From positions 1-35,275 of the forward strand of contig JACNKA010000131.1 of the NCBI GenBank assembly GCA_014382285.1: a stretch of DNA of 35,275 nucleotides, in the 5' to 3' direction. Shown one piece after another: positions 80 to 10,877 of the stretch (positions are counted from its first letter, which is position 1; every line of letters begins with the position of its first letter). A program made the translations under genes and the position numbers. Below the pieces are notes generated by a model. That model made no database searches and was not told the DNA's origin. It saw only the letters and a program-made list of their open reading frames with translations. This DNA comes from Nitrospinota bacterium (GTDB taxonomy: Bacteria; Nitrospinota; Nitrospinia; Nitrospinales; VA-1).

Positions 80-1696
80 ATGGGAGACCAGATCCATATT
101 GTAGAGTTGATTGACCAGGTTTTAAATGAAACTCAGGATCGACCTCAATTGCAGGAAAAGATCTTTGATCTCAGGGACGCTTTGTTCCAGGCCCAGCAGT
201 CTGCCCAGCAGTATGCATTGAAAATTAAGACGTTGGAGGAGGCTATTGAAAAGCTGAAATCTCCTGCCCACCGCATCGGCACGATTCTGGGGCAGGGGGA
301 GGATGGCTTGGCGCGTCTGGTTTCTGGGGGCACGGAATACCAGGCTGCGGTCGTCCCGGAACTGACGGAAAATGAGGGGCTGAAAACCGGGGACCAGGTC
401 GCGCTGAATGAAGGATTCGTTGCCATTGCCCGGCTACCTTTCCCCGCTCAGGGGCCATTGGCGAAAATTTCCGGAAAGTTGGCAGGTGGGCAATGGTTGG
501 TGCAGGCGGCGACCGGCAACAGCGAAACCCTTGTTCTGGCTCGCGATGGCCTGAATGAAGCCGAACTGAAAGAGGGCGAAGAAATTTTTCTCGATAGCAA
601 CCAAAGGGTTATTTTGGGAAAACTTCCGAAACGGGAGTCCCGCACCCTGATTGAAGACGATTATGACCAGGTGGAGTGGTCACAGGTGGGTGGACAGGAA
701 AAAGTAAAAGAGGAGGTGCGGAAAGTCCTCGAATACCCGCTTCTGCACAAAGAAATTCTGAGTCAGATGGAATATCAGGTGCCCAAAGGATTTTTGTTTT
801 ATGGTCCTCCGGGTTGCGGCAAAACTCTCATCGGAAAAGCGATTCTCACCGAAGTGATCCGCAAGCTTTCCGAGCACGAAGGCTCGGAACTTGAGGGCCG
901 GTTCATTCATGTTAAAGGACCGGAGATTCTCAATATGTGGCTGGGAGAATCGGAGCGTAAAATCCGCGAAATTTTCAAGAAAGCTCGGGACTATAAAGAA
1001 AAAGGCCAGATTCCGTTCATATTTATAGATGAAGCGGAATCCATTCTGGGAACCCGGCAGGCCTGGCGCGGATCGAACATCAGCAATACAGTGGTTCCCA
1101 TGTTTTGCGCGGAGATGGATGGCATTCAATCTCTGCGCGAAACGGTCGTGATTCTGGCGACCAACCGGCCCGACCTGATTGACCCCGCTGTCATCCGGCC
1201 CGGCAGAATTGATAGAAAGATCAAAGTGTCGCGTCCCAACCGCGAAGAGTCTAAGGCTATCCTGCGGGTTTACCTGAAAGAAGGACTGCCTCGTGAACAT
1301 GAGGACTTTGATGCGATGGCCGAACCGTTTCTGGACCGCCTTTTTGACCAAAATTCCAAACAGGAAGTATTGGTGCTGACATTGCGAAGCGGCAGTAACC
1401 GAAAAATGTATTGGAGCGATTTTATTTCTGGTGCGGTCATTGAGGGCATCATGAAACGCGCTAAAGAACGGGCCATCGAACGGACGATTCGTGGCGAAAC
1501 GCTATGCCTGACGGTGGACGATCTCGTGATTTCTCTGGAGGCCGAATTTGAGGAAGGCAGTCTGCTACCCGCTGAATCGAACATGGAAGACTGGCTTCAG
1601 CTTTTGGATATGGACTCGAAGAATGTTGTGCGGGTAAGACGACCTAACGAGTCAGATAAAGCCACCGAAAACACGATGCGCCGGTCCATCATATGA
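80..1696 (+). CDS. mpa: Proteasome-activating AAA+ ATPase (Mpa/ARC family)
   Basis: This is the hexameric unfoldase that recognises modifier-tagged proteins and threads them into the 20S proteasome. The 538 residues follow the family layout: an N-terminal coiled coil (about 22-62) that in Mycobacterium binds Pup, two OB-type domains (about 65-185), and one AAA module. Visible motifs are Walker A GPPGCGKT (242-249), a pore loop with WLGE (287-290), Walker B IFIDEAES (314-321), sensor-1 Asn362 and arginine fingers in RPGR (373-376). The start is supported by AAAGGA at 67-72, seven bases upstream. The stop overlaps the dop start by four bases (ATGA), implying translational coupling. The C terminus ends in RRSII and lacks the penultimate tyrosine used by actinobacterial Mpa to dock on the alpha ring. 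Length and motifs leave little doubt about the family. Confidence 0.95.
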   Translation: MGDQIHIVELIDQVLNETQDRPQLQEKIFDLRDALFQAQQSAQQYALKIKTLEEAIEKLKSPAHRIGTILGQGEDGLARLVSGGTEYQAAVVPELTENEGLKTGDQVALNEGFVAIARLPFPAQGPLAKISGKLAGGQWLVQAATGNSETLVLARDGLNEAELKEGEEIFLDSNQRVILGKLPKRESRTLIEDDYDQVEWSQVGGQEKVKEEVRKVLEYPLLHKEILSQMEYQVPKGFLFYGPPGCGKTLIGKAILTEVIRKLSEHEGSELEGRFIHVKGPEILNMWLGESERKIREIFKKARDYKEKGQIPFIFIDEAESILGTRQAWRGSNISNTVVPMFCAEMDGIQSLRETVVILATNRPDLIDPAVIRPGRIDRKIKVSRPNREESKAILRVYLKEGLPREHEDFDAMAEPFLDRLFDQNSKQEVLVLTLRSGSNRKMYWSDFISGAVIEGIMKRAKERAIERTIRGETLCLTVDDLVISLEAEFEEGSLLPAESNMEDWLQLLDMDSKNVVRVRRPNESDKATENTMRRSII

Positions 1697-3153
1697 GCGT
1701 TCCTCTCCTCGGTATGGAGACCGAGTATGGGATAATCCGGGAAGACATGGAAAACTCCGATCCGGTTGAAGAGTCCATGAAACTTTTACAGGCCTGCGAG
1801 CGCAAAAGTGTTTTTGGTAAATGGGCGTATTCACAGGAGAACTCGCATCTGGATATGCGAGGGTTTAAGGTGAAATCTTTGGCTCAGGATGAAGAGGAGG
1901 ATGCTTTTTGCGCTGAAGATCGCAAAAGGCCCTACTCCTATCTGGATATGAAATGCGACCGGGTTTTGACAAACGGTGCACGTTTTTATAATGACCATAC
2001 TCATCCTGAATACAGCACCCCGGAGTGTCGGTCTGTGTTGTCGCTGGTGGCGCATGATGTGGCGGGGGAGAGAATTGTCGCCGAATGTGTGACCCTTCGT
2101 AACCGAGAGTTGGAGGGCAAACCGCTTCAGGTATTCAAAAATAATACCGATTACAGCGGTCATAGTTATGGAACGCATGATAACTACCTCATCCCCAGAG
2201 AAACGCCATTTGAGGATTTGGTAAAAGGACTGGTTCCTTTTCTGGTGACGCGCCAGTTGTATGCCGGGGCGGGGAAAGTGGGGTCAGAGAGTGCTACAGA
2301 TTTTCAGGGTTTGCAGTTGGCGCAGCGGTCTGATTTTATCGAAACGGTTTTAAGCATCGAGACCATGACGAACCGCCCTCTCATTAATACCCGGGACGAA
2401 CCGCATGCGGTGAGTAGCCGGTATCGGCGTTTGCATTTGATTCTCGGCGATGCCAATATGTCGGCTTATGCCACGGCCCTGAAGGTGGGCAGTACATCGC
2501 TGGTTCTCAATCTAATTGCCAGGGGTGAAAAATTTCCCGACTTGGAATTAGCGGATCCTGTCTCCGATGTGTTGAAAGTGTCTCTCGATAAAACCGGGGC
2601 TTTGCAACGCAAGGCCCTTGGCACCATCACGGCTTTTGAGATTCAGGAAACTTATCTGGAGGCGGCAGAAAAAGCTTTTGCCGGAAAAGACCCGGAGTGG
2701 GACTGGATTCTTGCAGAATGGAAAAAGACGATGGATGAACTCAGGCACAGTCCTGAAAAATTATCTGATCGCATTGACTGGGCGATCAAGGAGAAATTGT
2801 TTACTGAGTTCATGCAGTCCGAGGGCATTGGCTGGCAAGACCCCTTGCTCAAAAGCCTGGATTTGGAATACCATAATCTGGATCCTGATCGCGGGTTGTA
2901 TCGGGGGTTGCAGCAGGAGGGGGAAGTCTATTCCCTGCTGAGTGAGGAAGAAATTGTTCGTGCTATTGAGTCACCTCCTGCAGGAACCCGCGCCCAGATA
3001 AGAGGGCAAGCGGTGGCTCAAGGCGCAGAGAATATAAAACGTATTCATTGGACGGGTGTTGAGTTTGTAAATGGAGAAATTCTGGATTTAACCGGAGTCA
3101 TTAGTTCCGAAGAAGTTGAAGCGATTCTCAATTCCAGTAAACAATTGGTTTGA
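1693..3153 (+). CDS. dop: Deamidase of the Pup-like modifier (Dop family)
   Basis: This is a member of the Pup ligase/deamidase family with a glutamine-synthetase-like fold. I assign it as Dop, the enzyme that converts the modifier's C-terminal Gln to Glu and can also remove the modifier from substrates. The ATP/Mg motif MET-EYG contains Glu9 and Glu11. The catalytic Asp101 sits in FYNDHTHPEYS. An insertion of roughly 40 residues before the LTNGAR motif contains DMRGF, matching the DARGF of the mycobacterial Dop loop; the second family member in this locus lacks it. The KNNTD, SYGTHDNYL, QRSDFIE and INTRDEPHA blocks match Dop more closely than PafA. The 486-residue length is normal. The start overlaps the mpa stop. 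The other possible name is PafA, but the Dop loop argues against that. Confidence 0.88.
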   Translation: MSVPLLGMETEYGIIREDMENSDPVEESMKLLQACERKSVFGKWAYSQENSHLDMRGFKVKSLAQDEEEDAFCAEDRKRPYSYLDMKCDRVLTNGARFYNDHTHPEYSTPECRSVLSLVAHDVAGERIVAECVTLRNRELEGKPLQVFKNNTDYSGHSYGTHDNYLIPRETPFEDLVKGLVPFLVTRQLYAGAGKVGSESATDFQGLQLAQRSDFIETVLSIETMTNRPLINTRDEPHAVSSRYRRLHLILGDANMSAYATALKVGSTSLVLNLIARGEKFPDLELADPVSDVLKVSLDKTGALQRKALGTITAFEIQETYLEAAEKAFAGKDPEWDWILAEWKKTMDELRHSPEKLSDRIDWAIKEKLFTEFMQSEGIGWQDPLLKSLDLEYHNLDPDRGLYRGLQQEGEVYSLLSEEEIVRAIESPPAGTRAQIRGQAVAQGAENIKRIHWTGVEFVNGEILDLTGVISSEEVEAILNSSKQLV

Positions 3154-3184: not shown

Positions 3185-3261
3185 AAATCACCCCAGCCCC
3201 TCTTTAAAAAAGAAGGGTCCATTGAAGCTCCCCCTTCTGCGAAGAGGGTTAGGGGGGATTT
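3185..3261. repeat. Imperfect inverted repeat element between dop and prcA
   Basis: The dop-prcA gap holds a 77-base element. Its left end (3185-3204, starting AAATC and ending CCCCTCTT) matches the reverse complement of its right end (3242-3261, AAGAGGG to GGATTT) at roughly three quarters of positions. An inner CTTCT/AGAAGG pairing adds to the potential stem. In RNA it would form a long hairpin inside the operon. The composition resembles the C/G-run palindrome near 28628-28652, so it may be a small dispersed repeat (REP- or MITE-like) rather than a locus-specific control element. Confidence 0.5.
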
Positions 3262-3311
3262 GATTAACTGCTTGAAACAACTCGTTACAGAACCTAGAGG
3301 AAAAGTGAAAC

Positions 3312-4049
3312 ATGTTTGAAGAGCCGTATCGATGGATGGAAGCGGTTTCCACCCGCCATAATTATGTTCAGGAAAAACTGAAAATGGGTCAGCCGGTGTT
3401 GTCGGTTCCTTACGATGACGGGGTGCTGATTATGGGGTTTTCCCCTCAGCCAGGCAAGATTTTCGAAGTCTACGATCGCATTGCCTTGGGGGGTGTGGGT
3501 CACCCTGCTGATGTGGAACGGTTGCGCATGACCCTTTTAGATATGGCACATTTGGAAGGCTTCAACCGCTCGGCTCAGGATGTGACTTTGGCAAGGCTTC
3601 TGCAATTTGGAATTGCCCCCGCACTCAAACAAAACTTTGAAGAAATTCAACGCGCACCTTATATCATTTGCCTCCTTCTTGTCGAGCTGGACGGTGCAGG
3701 CCATCCCAACTTTTTCCGAGTGAATTATGACGGGCATTGGGAGACATTTAAAAGCGGAACCGTTATTGCCGGCAACGAAAAAGTCATGGATGAGGTGCAG
3801 AAGAAAATTCAAGACACGCCCTTTGCAACGTTTACGCTGGATAAGGCGTTGGAAGAAACCTGTCGTCTTTGGGCTGAAAGTAGAAAACAGTATGAAGAGG
3901 ACGATAAAAGTATCCCCATGACTTTGAAAGAGGCTTTTGATCAATGGTATTTTGAGGCCGCTGTGTTGTCGGGAAAAGTGGAGCGGAGAGCTATATACCG
4001 AGCGCTCACCAAGGAAGAGATTGGCAAGTTAAAATCATCGGTTGGTTGA
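3312..4049 (+). CDS. prcA: 20S proteasome alpha subunit
   Basis: This is the structural, non-catalytic outer-ring subunit of the 20S core. The protein is 245 residues, close to other bacterial PrcA proteins. It aligns by eye with actinobacterial PrcA: an N-terminal helix region (YRWMEAVSTRHNYVQEKL), the strand block VPYDDGVLIMGF, KIFEVYDRIALGGVGHPADVERLR, SAQDVTLARLL, and the late segment FFRVNYDGHWE. It lacks the GTT catalytic start of beta subunits, as expected. An AGAGGA (3296-3301) lies ten bases before the ATG. It sits between dop and the modifier gene. Actinobacteria usually have prcB before prcA, with the modifier before both, so the order here is different. The N-terminal gating residues differ from the mycobacterial protein. 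Confidence 0.88.
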   Translation: MFEEPYRWMEAVSTRHNYVQEKLKMGQPVLSVPYDDGVLIMGFSPQPGKIFEVYDRIALGGVGHPADVERLRMTLLDMAHLEGFNRSAQDVTLARLLQFGIAPALKQNFEEIQRAPYIICLLLVELDGAGHPNFFRVNYDGHWETFKSGTVIAGNEKVMDEVQKKIQDTPFATFTLDKALEETCRLWAESRKQYEEDDKSIPMTLKEAFDQWYFEAAVLSGKVERRAIYRALTKEEIGKLKSSVG

Positions 4050-4082
4050 TGCCTGGTGATGAGGCAGAGACAGCCTGATAAC

Positions 4083-4090
4083 AAAAGGAG
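4083..4090 (+). promoter_or_regulatory. Strong ribosome binding site of the modifier gene
   Basis: AAAAGGAG lies eight bases before the ATG at 4099. It is among the best Shine-Dalgarno matches in the locus. This supports real, high-level translation of the short ORF and decides its start over the in-frame ATG at 4105. Confidence 0.7.
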
Positions 4091-4098
4091 TTGATCCC

Positions 4099-4275
4099 AT
4101 GGAAATGAATGATCCCTTAAGGAGGGAAGAAAAAAAAGAAACCAGTCCGGATCGCGATGCGTCCGGCCCTTCCAGCCCGGAACCTTCACGGCCAGGAAAA
4201 GATAGTCTCTTGAAACGGATGAAAAAAGTGGACCCAAAACAATCTGAAAAATACAAACAGAGAACCGGTCAATGA
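4099..4275 (+). CDS. ubact: UBact/Pup-like protein modifier, 58 residues
   Basis: This small ORF encodes the probable protein tag of the locus. The protein starts MEMNDPLRREEKK. It is hydrophilic, with many Lys, Glu, Pro and Ser, no Cys or Trp and one Tyr, so it is probably disordered like Pup. A Pro/Ser-rich middle (about 15-33) is followed by a basic amphipathic stretch (KDSLLKRMKK, 34-43) that could dock on the Mpa coiled coil. It ends KYKQRTGQ. The terminal Gly-Gln parallels the Gly-Gly-Gln end of Pup that Dop deamidates to Glu before ligation. AAAAGGAG (4083-4090) lies eight bases before the ATG. The stop overlaps the prcB start (ATGA, 4272-4275). Family membership rests on context, size and C terminus, because tags of this type diverge strongly. 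The RTGQ end is what I know of the UBact group. Confidence 0.9.
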   Translation: MEMNDPLRREEKKETSPDRDASGPSSPEPSRPGKDSLLKRMKKVDPKQSEKYKQRTGQ

Positions 4276-5087
4276 ACGCTGACCCCAATGTATCGCCGGG
4301 AGATTTTTTTGGCTTGCTGGAAAAATCCGGTTATCGCTGGCATGCCCGAATTGATCCTTCGCAGGCACAAAACGCTATTACCGTGACGCATGGCACAACA
4401 GTTCTTGCCTTCCACTTTAAGGATGGTGTGATTGTTGCCGGTGATCGGCGCGCCACGGCGGGTAACAGCATTATGTATGAGCGTTGCGACAAGGTCATTC
4501 CTATTGATGATTATACGCTCATGGCGATTGCCGGGGTTCCGGCCACGGCTTTTGAGATGGCACGGGTTCTCACTCATAACTTTGAATATTACCGGCGCTC
4601 GCAAATGCAGGTTATGAGTGTGGAAGGGAAAATCCGCGCCTTGTCGAAACTGCTGAAAGAGAATGTCGGCATGGCGGTTCAGGGGCTGGGGGTGGTGAGC
4701 CCGATATTCGCCACTTACGATATAAAATCCAAAAAGGCGGCGATACATTTTTACGATATGCTGGGAGCGGATTTTAAGATCAGCACCCATACCGCAACAG
4801 GGTCTGGTTCGCCGACCATTCGAGGAATTCTCGAACATGAAGACCTCTGGGGCGAGAAGCCCTTATTGGAAAGGTCAGAAAGCGATGCCGTCACTCTAGC
4901 CATCCGGCTCTTGCAGACTGCGGCGCAATTTGATTCCGCTACCGGTAAAGCCCGGCCGGAAGATAATATTTTCCCGACTGTGGCATTGGTCACTGAGGCG
5001 GGTTACCGTTTTTTGAATGATGAGGAGATGGCGGGGTTATGTCAGGCATCCTTAAAGCGGGGCCGGGCAACGCCCGGTGGCAACTAG
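4272..5087 (+). CDS. prcB: 20S proteasome beta subunit (catalytic)
   Basis: This is the proteolytic inner-ring subunit, an N-terminal-nucleophile threonine protease. The 271 residues include a 41-residue propeptide, then G41-T42-T43, so autocleavage would expose Thr42 as the catalytic Thr1. The partner residues fall at the expected spacing: Asp17 (residue 58, in AGDRRAT) and Lys33 (residue 74, in CDKV). The late DSATG motif is also present. These residues predict an active enzyme. The ATG lies inside the modifier's stop (ATGA) with only a weak Shine-Dalgarno, so translation is probably coupled to the modifier. A 7-bp hairpin overlaps its stop codon and lies before pafA. Confidence 0.95.
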   Translation: MNADPNVSPGDFFGLLEKSGYRWHARIDPSQAQNAITVTHGTTVLAFHFKDGVIVAGDRRATAGNSIMYERCDKVIPIDDYTLMAIAGVPATAFEMARVLTHNFEYYRRSQMQVMSVEGKIRALSKLLKENVGMAVQGLGVVSPIFATYDIKSKKAAIHFYDMLGADFKISTHTATGSGSPTIRGILEHEDLWGEKPLLERSESDAVTLAIRLLQTAAQFDSATGKARPEDNIFPTVALVTEAGYRFLNDEEMAGLCQASLKRGRATPGGN

Positions 5088-5175: not shown

Positions 5176-6687
5176 ATGAAAAAACGCATCTTCGGCATCG
5201 AAACGGAATATGGACTCCTGATCAAAAATGATGCCGAGTTTCCCCTCGATTCCATGGAAGTGGCCAACAAGGTCAAGAACCATGTTTTCTCAAAAAACCA
5301 GGGTGTGTTGGATCTTCACTACCGGGCCAACGATGAGCCACCGGGTAACGGCGGGTTCCTGCTTAATGGCGGGCGCCTGTATCTCGACATGGGACATTTG
5401 GAATACGCTTCTCCAGAATGCTCCAACCTGGTCGATCTGGTGACTTATGACCGTGCCGGAGACACGATGATTCAGGAAGCGGTGGAAGAGTTGGGCTGGG
5501 CGGATCATGTTTCGTTCATCAAGAATAATGTGGATCTTGAAACCAACGCGACCTTCGGGTGCCACGAGAATTATCTGGTTGGCAGGGGATTTCCTTTCGA
5601 TGAGCAGGACAACCTGAAACTGCTTTCTTGCTTTTTAACGACCCGGCAGATTTTTTGCGGTGCAGGTCGCATCGGTTCCTGCGATCCCCACCCGTTCCGG
5701 GATTGGGATGGTGTCACGCCTTATGAAAGTCAAGCTGATGAGCAGGTGAACTTTCAGCTTTCACAAAGAGCCGATCATATCCCCAACGAATTTTATCGGT
5801 GGGTGCAGTACAACCGGGCTATTGTCAACACCCGCGATGAACCGTTGTCGGACCCCAGCAAATACCGGCGTATTCATCTTCTGGTTGGCGACTCTACGAT
5901 GAGTGAGTTTGCCACCGCCATGAAGATGGGAACCACAACCCTTATGCTGGAAATCATGCAACTGGGGGTCGCCAAACGCGAATGGATTCTTGCCGACTCG
6001 GTTTTTGCCATGCGTTCTATTTCCCGCGATCCGGATTTTAAATGGCATGTGAAACTGGCTTCGGGAAAGACTTCCAGTGCTTTGGAGCTGCAACTGGATA
6101 TTCTTAATACCTGCAAAGAACATCTGGCAGGGAAGAACCGGGAGACAGACTGGATTTTGCAAGGCTGGGAATCGGTCTTGACCGATTTACCAAAAGGACC
6201 GGAAGCAGTGATCGGCAGAGTGGACTGGGCCAGCAAGTACTGGATGCTTAACGAATTCAAAAATGAAGAGAACCTCGAATGGAACGACCCCTGGCTCAAA
6301 AGCCTGGACCTGGAATACCATAACCTGAATAAAAAAAACGGTCTGTTCTGGGGGTTGGAAGCCAGTGGCGATGGTTACCGAAAAACTACCGATGAAGCAG
6401 TTGAATTTGCAAAAGCCAATCCTCCAAGAGGAACCCGGGCGCATGGCCGGGGAGAACTCATCAAACGACTCATCAATCAGTATTCCCACATGAGTTATCT
6501 TATAGACTGGATTGGCTTTCGCTTGAGCAAAACAGACGAGCCATTTCTGATGCTCGACCCGTTCATCTCCTATAAAGAAGAGGTCATAGAGCATCTTAAG
6601 CAGTTTGATACTCTACCCCATGAGAAAAGCAAACCGGGATCGGATATGAAAAACCCGGAACCACGCGGGAAAAAAACTTATGAGTGA
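5176..6687 (+). CDS. pafA: Ligase for the Pup-like modifier (PafA family)
   Basis: This is the second member of the Pup ligase/deamidase family, 503 residues, assigned as the ligase that joins the C-terminal Glu of the modifier to substrate lysines using ATP. It starts MKKRIFGIETEYG, with Glu9 and Glu11 for Mg-ATP. Asp71 in RLYLDMG is the equivalent of the catalytic base. GCHENYL, CGAGRIG, LSQRADHI and VNTRDEP follow in the family order. It lacks the Dop-loop insertion, which places it on the PafA side. The CGAGRIG block is followed by an extra stretch (about 178-195, DPHPFRDWDGV) that is absent from mycobacterial PafA. The tail after about residue 480 is charged and probably flexible. Its end overlaps the HIT gene by eight bases. 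Confidence 0.88.
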   Translation: MKKRIFGIETEYGLLIKNDAEFPLDSMEVANKVKNHVFSKNQGVLDLHYRANDEPPGNGGFLLNGGRLYLDMGHLEYASPECSNLVDLVTYDRAGDTMIQEAVEELGWADHVSFIKNNVDLETNATFGCHENYLVGRGFPFDEQDNLKLLSCFLTTRQIFCGAGRIGSCDPHPFRDWDGVTPYESQADEQVNFQLSQRADHIPNEFYRWVQYNRAIVNTRDEPLSDPSKYRRIHLLVGDSTMSEFATAMKMGTTTLMLEIMQLGVAKREWILADSVFAMRSISRDPDFKWHVKLASGKTSSALELQLDILNTCKEHLAGKNRETDWILQGWESVLTDLPKGPEAVIGRVDWASKYWMLNEFKNEENLEWNDPWLKSLDLEYHNLNKKNGLFWGLEASGDGYRKTTDEAVEFAKANPPRGTRAHGRGELIKRLINQYSHMSYLIDWIGFRLSKTDEPFLMLDPFISYKEEVIEHLKQFDTLPHEKSKPGSDMKNPEPRGKKTYE

Positions 6688-8049: not shown

Positions 8050-9297
8050 ATGGACCACGAATTACTTCATAGTCTGCAAAAGTTTTCTGAAAAAAACCCA
8101 GACCCCATCTTCAGTGTAAACAGGGAGGGGTGCATTGTGCAAACCAACCGGGCTTGCGCAAAGGAGTTGGACGGCTGGAGGCTTGAGAAAGGAGACCCTG
8201 CTCCCGAAGTATTGACAAACCTGATTGATTCGGCTTTTGAGTCGACCCGCCCGCAAAAACAAAGTTTATCCTGCGCCAATCATTTATATGATTTTGAAGT
8301 TATACCGCTTATGGTGTTGGATTGTAGTTTCGCCCTGATCCATGGGCATGCCCCTGAAAACCCTTATGAGAAAAGATTGAAGTCTATTGAACGGCTGGAT
8401 GCTTTTCTTTTCACTGAGAAAAAAAACAAATTACTGATCCAAAAGGCTTTGGATGGAATCATCACCATAGATGATAAGGGTGTGGTGCAATCTTTTAACC
8501 CTGCGGCAGAAAAAATCTTTGGTTACTCCGCCATGGAGGTGGTGGACAGAAATATCAACCAATTGATGCCGGAGCCGGAGAGTAGCCAGCATGATGGATA
8601 CCTTGAAAAATATTTCAAAACTGGAGAGTCAACCATTATTGGTTTTTCCAGAGAGGTGCTGGGGTTGAAAAAAAATGGTGATTGCTTTCCTCTTGAGATT
8701 AATATCAGCGTTATGGATTGGGAGGGGAAAAGCGAATTTGTCGGGATAGTGCGTGAAATTACCGAGCGCAAGCAGATGGAGGAAAAACTGCAAAGGTTAT
8801 CCGTTTTGGATGGATTGACGGGAATTGGCAATCGCCGCCTTTTTGATGAAACTCTGGACAATGAATGGAAAAGGGTCAAGAGAGATCAGCTACCCATTTC
8901 ATTGATATTGCTGGATATTGATTTTTTCAAACTTTATAACGATAGTTATGGGCATCAGGCGGGGGATGCTTGCCTGAAACAGGTTGCTACAGCTTTTGAC
9001 CAATGTGTTCAACGCCCGGCCGACCTGGTAGCCCGTTATGGCGGAGAAGAGTTTGCGGTGATCCTTCCCGAAACAACCTTGGAAGGAGCCTCCGCTCTGG
9101 CAGAATCCATTCGGTCGTCCATTGAATCTCTGAAAATAGAGCATAATAAAAGTACGGTCAGCTCTCATGTTACCGTGAGCATCGGCGTATCTACTTTGAT
9201 GCCAGAACGTGGAGCTTCATGTGAACAATTAATCTTAAATGCTGACAAGGCACTTTATCGAGCCAAAGAAAAAGGTAGAAATCAGATCAGGCATTAG
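8050..9297 (+). CDS. PAS-GGDEF diguanylate cyclase
   Basis: This predicted cytoplasmic enzyme makes cyclic di-GMP. The 415 residues contain an N-terminal PAS-like segment (about 8-100), a clear PAS/PAC domain (about 130-245, ending in the typical VREITERKQMEEKL linker) and a C-terminal GGDEF domain. The active site is GGEEF (331-335). An RxxD inhibitory site (RPAD, 322-325) lies five residues upstream, so product feedback is expected. No EAL domain and no membrane segment are visible. It starts six bases after nadA and ends before a terminator, making it the last gene of the proteasome transcript if no internal promoter exists. The ligand of the PAS domains cannot be read from the sequence. 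Confidence 0.93.
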   Translation: MDHELLHSLQKFSEKNPDPIFSVNREGCIVQTNRACAKELDGWRLEKGDPAPEVLTNLIDSAFESTRPQKQSLSCANHLYDFEVIPLMVLDCSFALIHGHAPENPYEKRLKSIERLDAFLFTEKKNKLLIQKALDGIITIDDKGVVQSFNPAAEKIFGYSAMEVVDRNINQLMPEPESSQHDGYLEKYFKTGESTIIGFSREVLGLKKNGDCFPLEINISVMDWEGKSEFVGIVREITERKQMEEKLQRLSVLDGLTGIGNRRLFDETLDNEWKRVKRDQLPISLILLDIDFFKLYNDSYGHQAGDACLKQVATAFDQCVQRPADLVARYGGEEFAVILPETTLEGASALAESIRSSIESLKIEHNKSTVSSHVTVSIGVSTLMPERGASCEQLILNADKALYRAKEKGRNQIRH

Positions 9298-10016: not shown

Positions 10017-10877
10017 TTAAACCAGCCGGTAGCTTCCTTGTTTCTCTTTTCGTATGACCAGCAAGGTGCCCTGAAATTCTTTTTGGGTGCCTTTTTTCAT
10101 GACCAACTCCTGCGGCACACTCCACATCCCGGTGGCAGTCACCATAAAATCTATACAGCGACAGAGATCGTACAGGGTGGACTGTTGGTTGACGGTCAGG
10201 GAAATTTCATAATCTGTGGTGGTTCTGGGGCCGACACGCCGGGTTAAAACATGGGCTCTGCTGGTATCGCTGAAATTGTCCTCGCAAAAACTTATAAAGT
10301 TCTGGCCGATCAGGTCGAACACATCATACCCCAAAAAACTGACCGCTTTATTGGCGAAAACAATTTTACCATCGGCATCGGTCTGGATAATAATGTCTGA
10401 TGACGAGTCGACCACTCTGCGATATTTCTCCCGGCTGTTCCTGATTTCCTGATAACTGGCGACAATGACATCCAGATCCTCCCTGTTTCTGGCTGAGATG
10501 ACCTTTAAAATTTCCCAAATCACTTTCGGGTTCGGGACAAAATAAGCAAAGAAGGTTTCTTTGTCGATTTCCAGCACATCCGCATCGGTAAGAGCCCGAA
10601 CACTGGCTGAACGAGGCTTGGATTCGAGCAAGGCCATTTCACCCACAAAATCTCCAGCCCCCCGAACCGCGATGCGGTTTTGTTTTTTGTAAACTTCCAT
10701 GCTTCCCGAAAGGATGATGTACAGGGTTTCCTGAACTGCATGTTCTGAAAAAAGAACCTGATCTTTTTTCAGGTGCATCATTCTTCCGGAGCTATAAACA
10801 CATTTTAATTCCGCTTCCTGAAAAAAAAGGCAAATGGGCACCTTCTTCAAGGCTTCTAAATCCTTGAGAATGTTCAT
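10017..10877 (-). CDS. Cyclic-nucleotide-binding domain plus PAS protein
   Basis: This cytoplasmic protein of 286 residues has two recognisable parts. Residues about 10-130 form a CRP-type cyclic-nucleotide-binding fold with the blocks LYIILSGSMEVYKK, GAGDFVGEMALLESKPRSASVRAL and VLEIDKETF. Residues about 148-225 form a PAS domain (YRRVVDSSSDIIIQTDADGKIVFANKA). There is no helix-turn-helix, kinase or GGDEF domain, so it is not a CRP-type transcription factor. It may be a stand-alone sensor or partner protein. It is convergent with the EF-hand gene (77-base gap) and divergent from the CBS gene. Confidence 0.8.
   Translation of the reverse strand: MNILKDLEALKKVPICLFFQEAELKCVYSSGRMMHLKKDQVLFSEHAVQETLYIILSGSMEVYKKQNRIAVRGAGDFVGEMALLESKPRSASVRALTDADVLEIDKETFFAYFVPNPKVIWEILKVISARNREDLDVIVASYQEIRNSREKYRRVVDSSSDIIIQTDADGKIVFANKAVSFLGYDVFDLIGQNFISFCEDNFSDTSRAHVLTRRVGPRTTTDYEISLTVNQQSTLYDLCRCIDFMVTATGMWSVPQELVMKKGTQKEFQGTLLVIRKEKQGSYRLV

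Follow-up and report, generated by a model that had tools for sequence, protein, structure and literature searches.

The short gene at positions 4099-4275 of the window, which is the whole 35,275-nucleotide stretch of Nitrospinota DNA analyzed here, is best explained as encoding UBact, the small modifier of a Pup-like conjugation system that would feed the proteasome, and this explanation is held with high confidence. The gene lies in an operon of the order mpa-dop-prcA-UBact-prcB-pafA, followed by HIT and nadA genes, with these features:

80-1696, + strand: homologue of the mpa/ARC-type proteasomal ATPase, 538 aa, ending in -MRRSII
1693-3153, + strand: dop homologue (deamidase/deconjugase) with a Dop-loop and the catalytic Asp D101 (codon 1993-1995)
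3186-3265, no strand assigned: dispersed palindromic repeat of 80 bp in the dop-prcA spacer (incidental)
3312-4049, + strand: prcA homologue (20S alpha subunit), very divergent
4085-4090, + strand: AAGGAG ribosome-binding site, spaced 8 nt from the UBact ATG downstream
4099-4275, + strand: UBact gene, 58 aa
4099-4197, + strand: UBact residues 1-33, less conserved in the alignment and predicted to be unstructured (AF2 block pLDDT 54-61, no secondary structure)
4198-4266, + strand: basic C-terminal part of UBact with two predicted helices, residues 34-44 and 46-56 (AF2 block pLDDT 79-93)
4261-4272, + strand: terminal R-T-G-Q, with the Gln codon CAA at 4270-4272
4272-5087, + strand: prcB homologue (20S beta subunit) with the catalytic Thr in HG/TTVLAF, PF00227 106 bits
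5176-6687, + strand: pafA homologue (ligase) without a Dop-loop, catalytic Asp D71 (codon 5386-5388)

A 58-codon ORF with a strong ribosome site had been proposed between prcA and prcB in the first-pass annotation, and both points were borne out. The ORF translates to MEMNDPLRREEKKETSPDRDASGPSSPEPSRPGKDSLLKRMKKVDPKQSEKYKQRTGQ*, and its AAGGAG site is also found in most Nitrospinaceae relatives. Its stop codon overlaps the start of prcB (..CAATGA), the A of the prcB ATG serving also as the third base of the Gln codon. The product matches both curated UBact models, NCBIfam NF033388 with 72.5 bits (cut-off 35) and Pfam PF20513 with 70.6 bits (cut-off 27.8). Among ungapped Nitrospinaceae sequences, the summed pN/pS is 0.16 and third codon positions account for 984 of the 1533 substitutions (64%), a pattern that points to strong purifying selection. 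A reading in which the ORF is mere spacer, or in which the true gene is the antisense ORF at 3941-4288 (115 aa), could appeal to the shortness of the UBact ORF and to the greater length of the antisense ORF overlapping it; it conflicts, however, with the profile matches and the pN/pS ratio, and all 41 aligned Nitrospinaceae sequences keep the sense frame open, compared to 8-19 for the antisense frames. Its probability is considered practically nil, both versions being ruled out by pN/pS and by frame openness among these relatives. These comparisons show a genuine 58-residue gene of the UBact family, which has been described before.

UBact was reportedly named by Lehmann et al. in 2017 (BBRC 483:946), who are said to have already listed Nitrospinae. 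Homologues of Dop and PafA in Nitrospinae have also been mentioned (PMC7947786). The gene is an expected member of a known family and its discovery itself is not new. The novelty that the first-pass annotation implied for the tag does not hold, since UBact was published in 2017 and curated Pfam and NCBIfam models exist; annotation pipelines using these models would therefore find the gene.

The same annotation was right in proposing a UBact/Pup-like tag, the profile matches giving UBact, not Pup, as the exact family. Were the ORF a true Pup (PF05639), from an actinobacterial-type pupylation operon transferred to Nitrospina, the similar neighbors, the two-enzyme logic and the small tag with a G-Q end would be accounted for, as would the register in which hhalign places the C termini of UBact and Pup. 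However, this hhalign match has a probability of 0.5% (E 0.13), BLASTP of UBact against Pup gives no alignment, and the ORF protein does not match PF05639 at E<=1; the best PF05639 score in the genome, 13.2 bits (cut-off 27), lies elsewhere, and the C. glutamicum control was positive. In addition, the end is RTGQ instead of GGQ, and Pup and UBact are separate genes in Nitrospira. The charge of the tag is also opposite: the last 28 residues carry a net +7 in the window UBact (+5 to +7 over the last 22 residues in its relatives), compared to -8 in Mtb Pup and -5 in Nitrospira Pup. Membership of the Pup family is ruled out by Pfam, BLASTP and hhalign, and such a transfer is regarded as very improbable.

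The likeness between UBact and the Pup of Actinobacteria is one of architecture, with no detectable sequence homology: both have a disordered N-terminal part, two C-terminal helices, a terminal G-Q/E and Dop, PafA, Mpa and 20S partners. In Pup bound to Dop, two helices precede the C terminus, and the N-terminal portion is not involved in the interaction (PMC8599861). The two tags may have a deep common origin. With eukaryotic ubiquitin and other beta-grasp proteins, UBact shares only the functional analogy of a covalent tag for proteasomal degradation. Unlike ubiquitin, it has no beta strands in its AlphaFold2 model, where the two helices are the only predicted elements, and its system involves no E1/E2/E3 chemistry, the enzymes being glutamine-synthetase-like.

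The AlphaFold2 model, built on a 17-row alignment, places a hinge at D45-P46 between the two predicted helices. The tag had been described as rich in lysine and glutamate and probably disordered, and each description stood in part: lysine is abundant (9 K, along with 7 R), but glutamate is moderate at most (6 residues), and disorder is predicted for the N-terminal half but not for the helical C-terminal part. The latter contains the invariant residues LKRM..VDP.Q...Y.QR. A structure search with the model found nothing in the PDB, which is unsurprising given two short helices, and a PDB search with the UBact sequence gave a single chance match (E 0.62).

Every one of the 69 relatives whose C terminus is intact has an R[TS]G[QE] end (60 Gln, 9 Glu), a set that takes in Nitrospira, Verrucomicrobia-like and Armatimonadota-like loci. 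A loss of the reading frame or of the C terminus in close relatives, which would speak against a tag, was looked for and none was found: all 57 other genomes of the phylum with a readable UBact end keep RTG, followed by Gln in 56 (always CAA) and Glu in one. A tree built from 61 Dop sequences gives at least seven changes of the terminal Gln/Glu state. Switching is seen for locus L047 compared to L048, L049 and L053, and also involves L046 and L050, L054, L064, L065 and L070. Dop is kept in the loci whose UBact ends in Glu. In species encoding Pup with a terminal Gln, Dop is also the deamidase (PMC8599861); by analogy, the standing job of Dop may be tag removal.

The genes that the first-pass annotation had placed alongside the tag, mpa, dop and pafA, are present, with the catalytic Asp in both Dop and PafA and the Dop-loop in Dop alone. 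The Mpa homologue has the AAA domain and both proteasomal ATPase OB domains above the Pfam cut-offs, and its best PDB match is Mpa (5kwa, 2.6e-82); it scores 380 bits against the NCBI equivalog cut-off of 505. The window Dop matches PF03136 with 508 bits and can be aligned with A. cellulolyticus Dop, Dop-loop included; it scores higher with the Dop model than with the PafA model (428 vs 354 bits), the former value lying below the TIGR03688 equivalog cut-off of 492. For PafA, the scores are 428 bits with PF03136 and 333 vs 551 bits for TIGR03686, and the top Foldseek match of its model is the PafA-Pup complex (4bjr, 1.4e-26). PrcA passes PF00227 (24.5 bits, cut-off 22.4) and reaches 54 bits with 20S_bact_alpha (cut-off 139), and the GTTVLA motif of PrcB is found in its relatives. 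All five UBact partner proteins score below their NCBI equivalog cut-offs and are therefore named here by Pfam-level homology together with diagnostic features.

A promoter and terminator scan gave nothing above chance. The palindromic repeat in the dop-prcA spacer recurs in the genome, with 32 matches of which about 20 are close to full length, and the spacer hairpin folds no better than shuffled sequences (z -1.2). Near the operon lie a cNMP-binding/PAS regulator (10017-10877) and a PAS-GGDEF diguanylate cyclase (8050-9297).

Tag and enzymes were also compared across the phylum. UBact is encoded by 58 of 77 genomes, all from one order, and by none of the 13 genomes from other orders. A Pup_ligase gene is missing from 17 of the 19 genomes that do not encode UBact, and the other two have one each, which in one of the two (G021) starts at a contig end; as UBact-less genomes almost always lack the enzymes, tag and enzymes come and go together. 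In nearly all UBact loci, the dop and proteasome genes adjoin UBact. The window genome is Nitrospina-type, its closest relatives being Nitrospina MAGs (UBact 97% and Dop up to 93% identical), and contains one UBact and exactly two Pup_ligase genes, both in the operon. Besides PrcA and PrcB, a third protein of this genome matches the Proteasome family, with a length close to that of HslV. Within the family of the window, Nitrospinaceae, two fairly complete genomes (G049, 95%; G027, 90%) contain neither UBact nor Pup_ligase, and a loss of the whole pathway is possible there.

Motif alignment distinguishes the two Pup_ligase genes. The first encodes the Dop-loop (W-[AD]-Y, then D.RG[FY]) and the D-H-x-HPEY motif of Dop, the second is without the Dop-loop, and both retain the catalytic Asp. 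The partners of UBact also differ from those of Pup. The alpha-loop of UBact-side PafA is constant across Nitrospinota, Nitrospira and related loci and contains W-[VI]-Q-x-[NS]-R-A, where Pup-type PafA has S-T-T-x-S-R; in the window PafA, this loop reads FYRWVQYNRA (residues 206-215, positions 5791-5820). The two Thr conserved in the alpha-loop of Pup-type PafA are missing from the window PafA (WVQ vs TT). In M. smegmatis PafA, mutation of the alpha-loop Thr slows ligation (PMC7947786). A helix is predicted at residues 205-215 of the window PafA, as expected of a ligase, but with a pLDDT below 50. UBact-side PafA proteins also share an additional HxRxxDEPxxNGGF segment. Similarly, the C terminus of Mpa differs between the two systems. 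The GQYL end of Mpa opens the mycobacterial proteasome. This end has been found to be required in mycobacteria (PMC12288473). UBact-type Mpa proteins end in -RSII, -NQII or similar (-VI, -VV), never in GQYL among those compared, and neither GQYL nor an HbYX motif is present at the C terminus of the window Mpa.

The sequences directly show the UBact gene with its family, selection and invariant terminus, the operon, the catalytic residues and the co-occurrence of tag and enzymes. A mechanism for this system can be proposed from Pup biochemistry, from which deamidation, ligation, recognition, degradation and tag removal are all inferred here. Translation would yield a UBact tag ending in Gln. 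Dop would deamidate this residue to Glu by ATP/phosphate chemistry, after which PafA would phosphorylate the gamma-carboxylate of Glu and transfer UBact to lysine side chains of target proteins. In both enzymes, the basic two-helix C-terminal part of UBact would dock in the groove. Mpa would then recognize the tagged protein through its N-terminal coiled-coil region, unfold it and deliver it to the PrcA/PrcB proteasome, and Dop could also take the tag off again. UBact would in this way be the substrate of the Dop and PafA of this operon, as the first-pass annotation had supposed. Points that weigh against this account are the partner scores below the equivalog cut-offs, the missing alpha-loop Thr of PafA, the missing GQYL end of Mpa and the lack of detectable sequence homology between UBact and Pup. 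It is conceivable, but highly unlikely, that UBact is not, or not only, a conjugated tag and acts as a free regulator or adaptor of the operon enzymes or of the proteasome, for example as a ligand of PafA or Dop or as an assembly or gating factor of the 20S particle. This would be in line with an Mpa that has no known docking motif and with the fact that the function of the UBact family rests on bioinformatics. Yet all 69 relatives retain the Q/E end that the chemistry requires, catalytic residues are kept in both enzymes, and the tree changes Gln to Glu or back and to nothing else, which fits a deamidated and ligated end better than a mere binding peptide. Conjugation of UBact by Dop and PafA is therefore the preferred reading.

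Four Nitrospira genomes (G097-G100) allow the two types of tag to be compared within one genome. Each encodes four Pup_ligase genes and, beside the UBact operon, a Pup ending in KGGE (66.9-75.9 bits) with its own complete Mpa-Dop-PrcB-PrcA-PafA cluster (loci L171, L173, L175 and L176 with L166-L169; UBact loci L047, L048, L049 and L053). In the three Nitrospira genomes compared for all enzymes, Dop and PafA have a net charge of -4 to -8 on the Pup side and -17 to -23 on the UBact side, and Mpa ends in GHYL on the former and in NQII or SQII on the latter; net charge is a crude measure, for which the comparison within a genome controls for proteome-wide acidity. These sequences suggest that the Pup and UBact pathways may be kept apart by charge. 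In a broader proposal, to which somewhat less than an even chance is given, UBact and Pup would be parallel, electrostatically opposite and non-cross-reacting systems, both of which some Nitrospira run in one cell, with a separate Mpa and 20S proteasome for each. Basic UBact would be paired with the more acidic Dop and PafA and acidic Pup with the less acidic ones, and the Mpa of UBact would dock by its -II, -VI or -VV end instead of GQYL. Two copies of the whole system have been reported in Leptospirillum ferrooxidans (PMC3511204), so that the dual arrangement as such is not new.

No earlier description was found of the distinct alpha-loop of UBact-type PafA, of UBact-type Mpa without GQYL, of four Nitrospira with complete Pup and UBact systems whose tags are oppositely charged, or of at least seven terminal Gln/Glu changes while Dop stayed. 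At the level of genes, a complete Pup-like tagging pathway is confirmed in an abundant Gram-negative group, the marine nitrite-oxidizing Nitrospinota. Of more use are the comparisons: the residues that never vary, the repeated exchange of Gln and Glu and the dual-tag Nitrospira genomes offer testable handles on the evolution of tag specificity and on the two jobs of Dop, deamidation and deconjugation.

The window shares with the UBact family the two profile matches above cut-off, the R[TS]G[QE] end, the mpa/dop/pafA/prcA/prcB cluster and a Gram-negative host, but differs from most other Nitrospinales and Nitrospira loci in the position of the gene between prcA and prcB. The order in its clade is dop-prcA-UBact-prcB-pafA, compared to dop-UBact-prcB-prcA-pafA in most other Nitrospinales and in Nitrospira. 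A sister group (L006, L011 and L017) has the order dop-prcB'-prcA-UBact-prcB, in which the additional, divergent prcB' between dop and prcA keeps GTTVLAF (at 4327 in L006, 4327 in L011 and 4220 in L017); in L010, the extra prcB is broken into fragments (736-1500). All three gene orders would be accounted for by a tandem duplication of prcB and subsequent losses that differed between the groups. The PrcB tree neither proves nor rejects an ancestral duplication (p-AU 0.77, long branch).

In the Dop tree, L060, L062 and L067 group with Verrucomicrobia and L028 and L039 with Nitrospinota, and the UBact of L058 is nearly identical to that of the L060/L062/L067 group. The record titles of these six loci (Klebsiella pneumoniae, Akkermansia, Proteobacteria, Nitrospirae) do not match this grouping, and they are probably misnamed MAGs.
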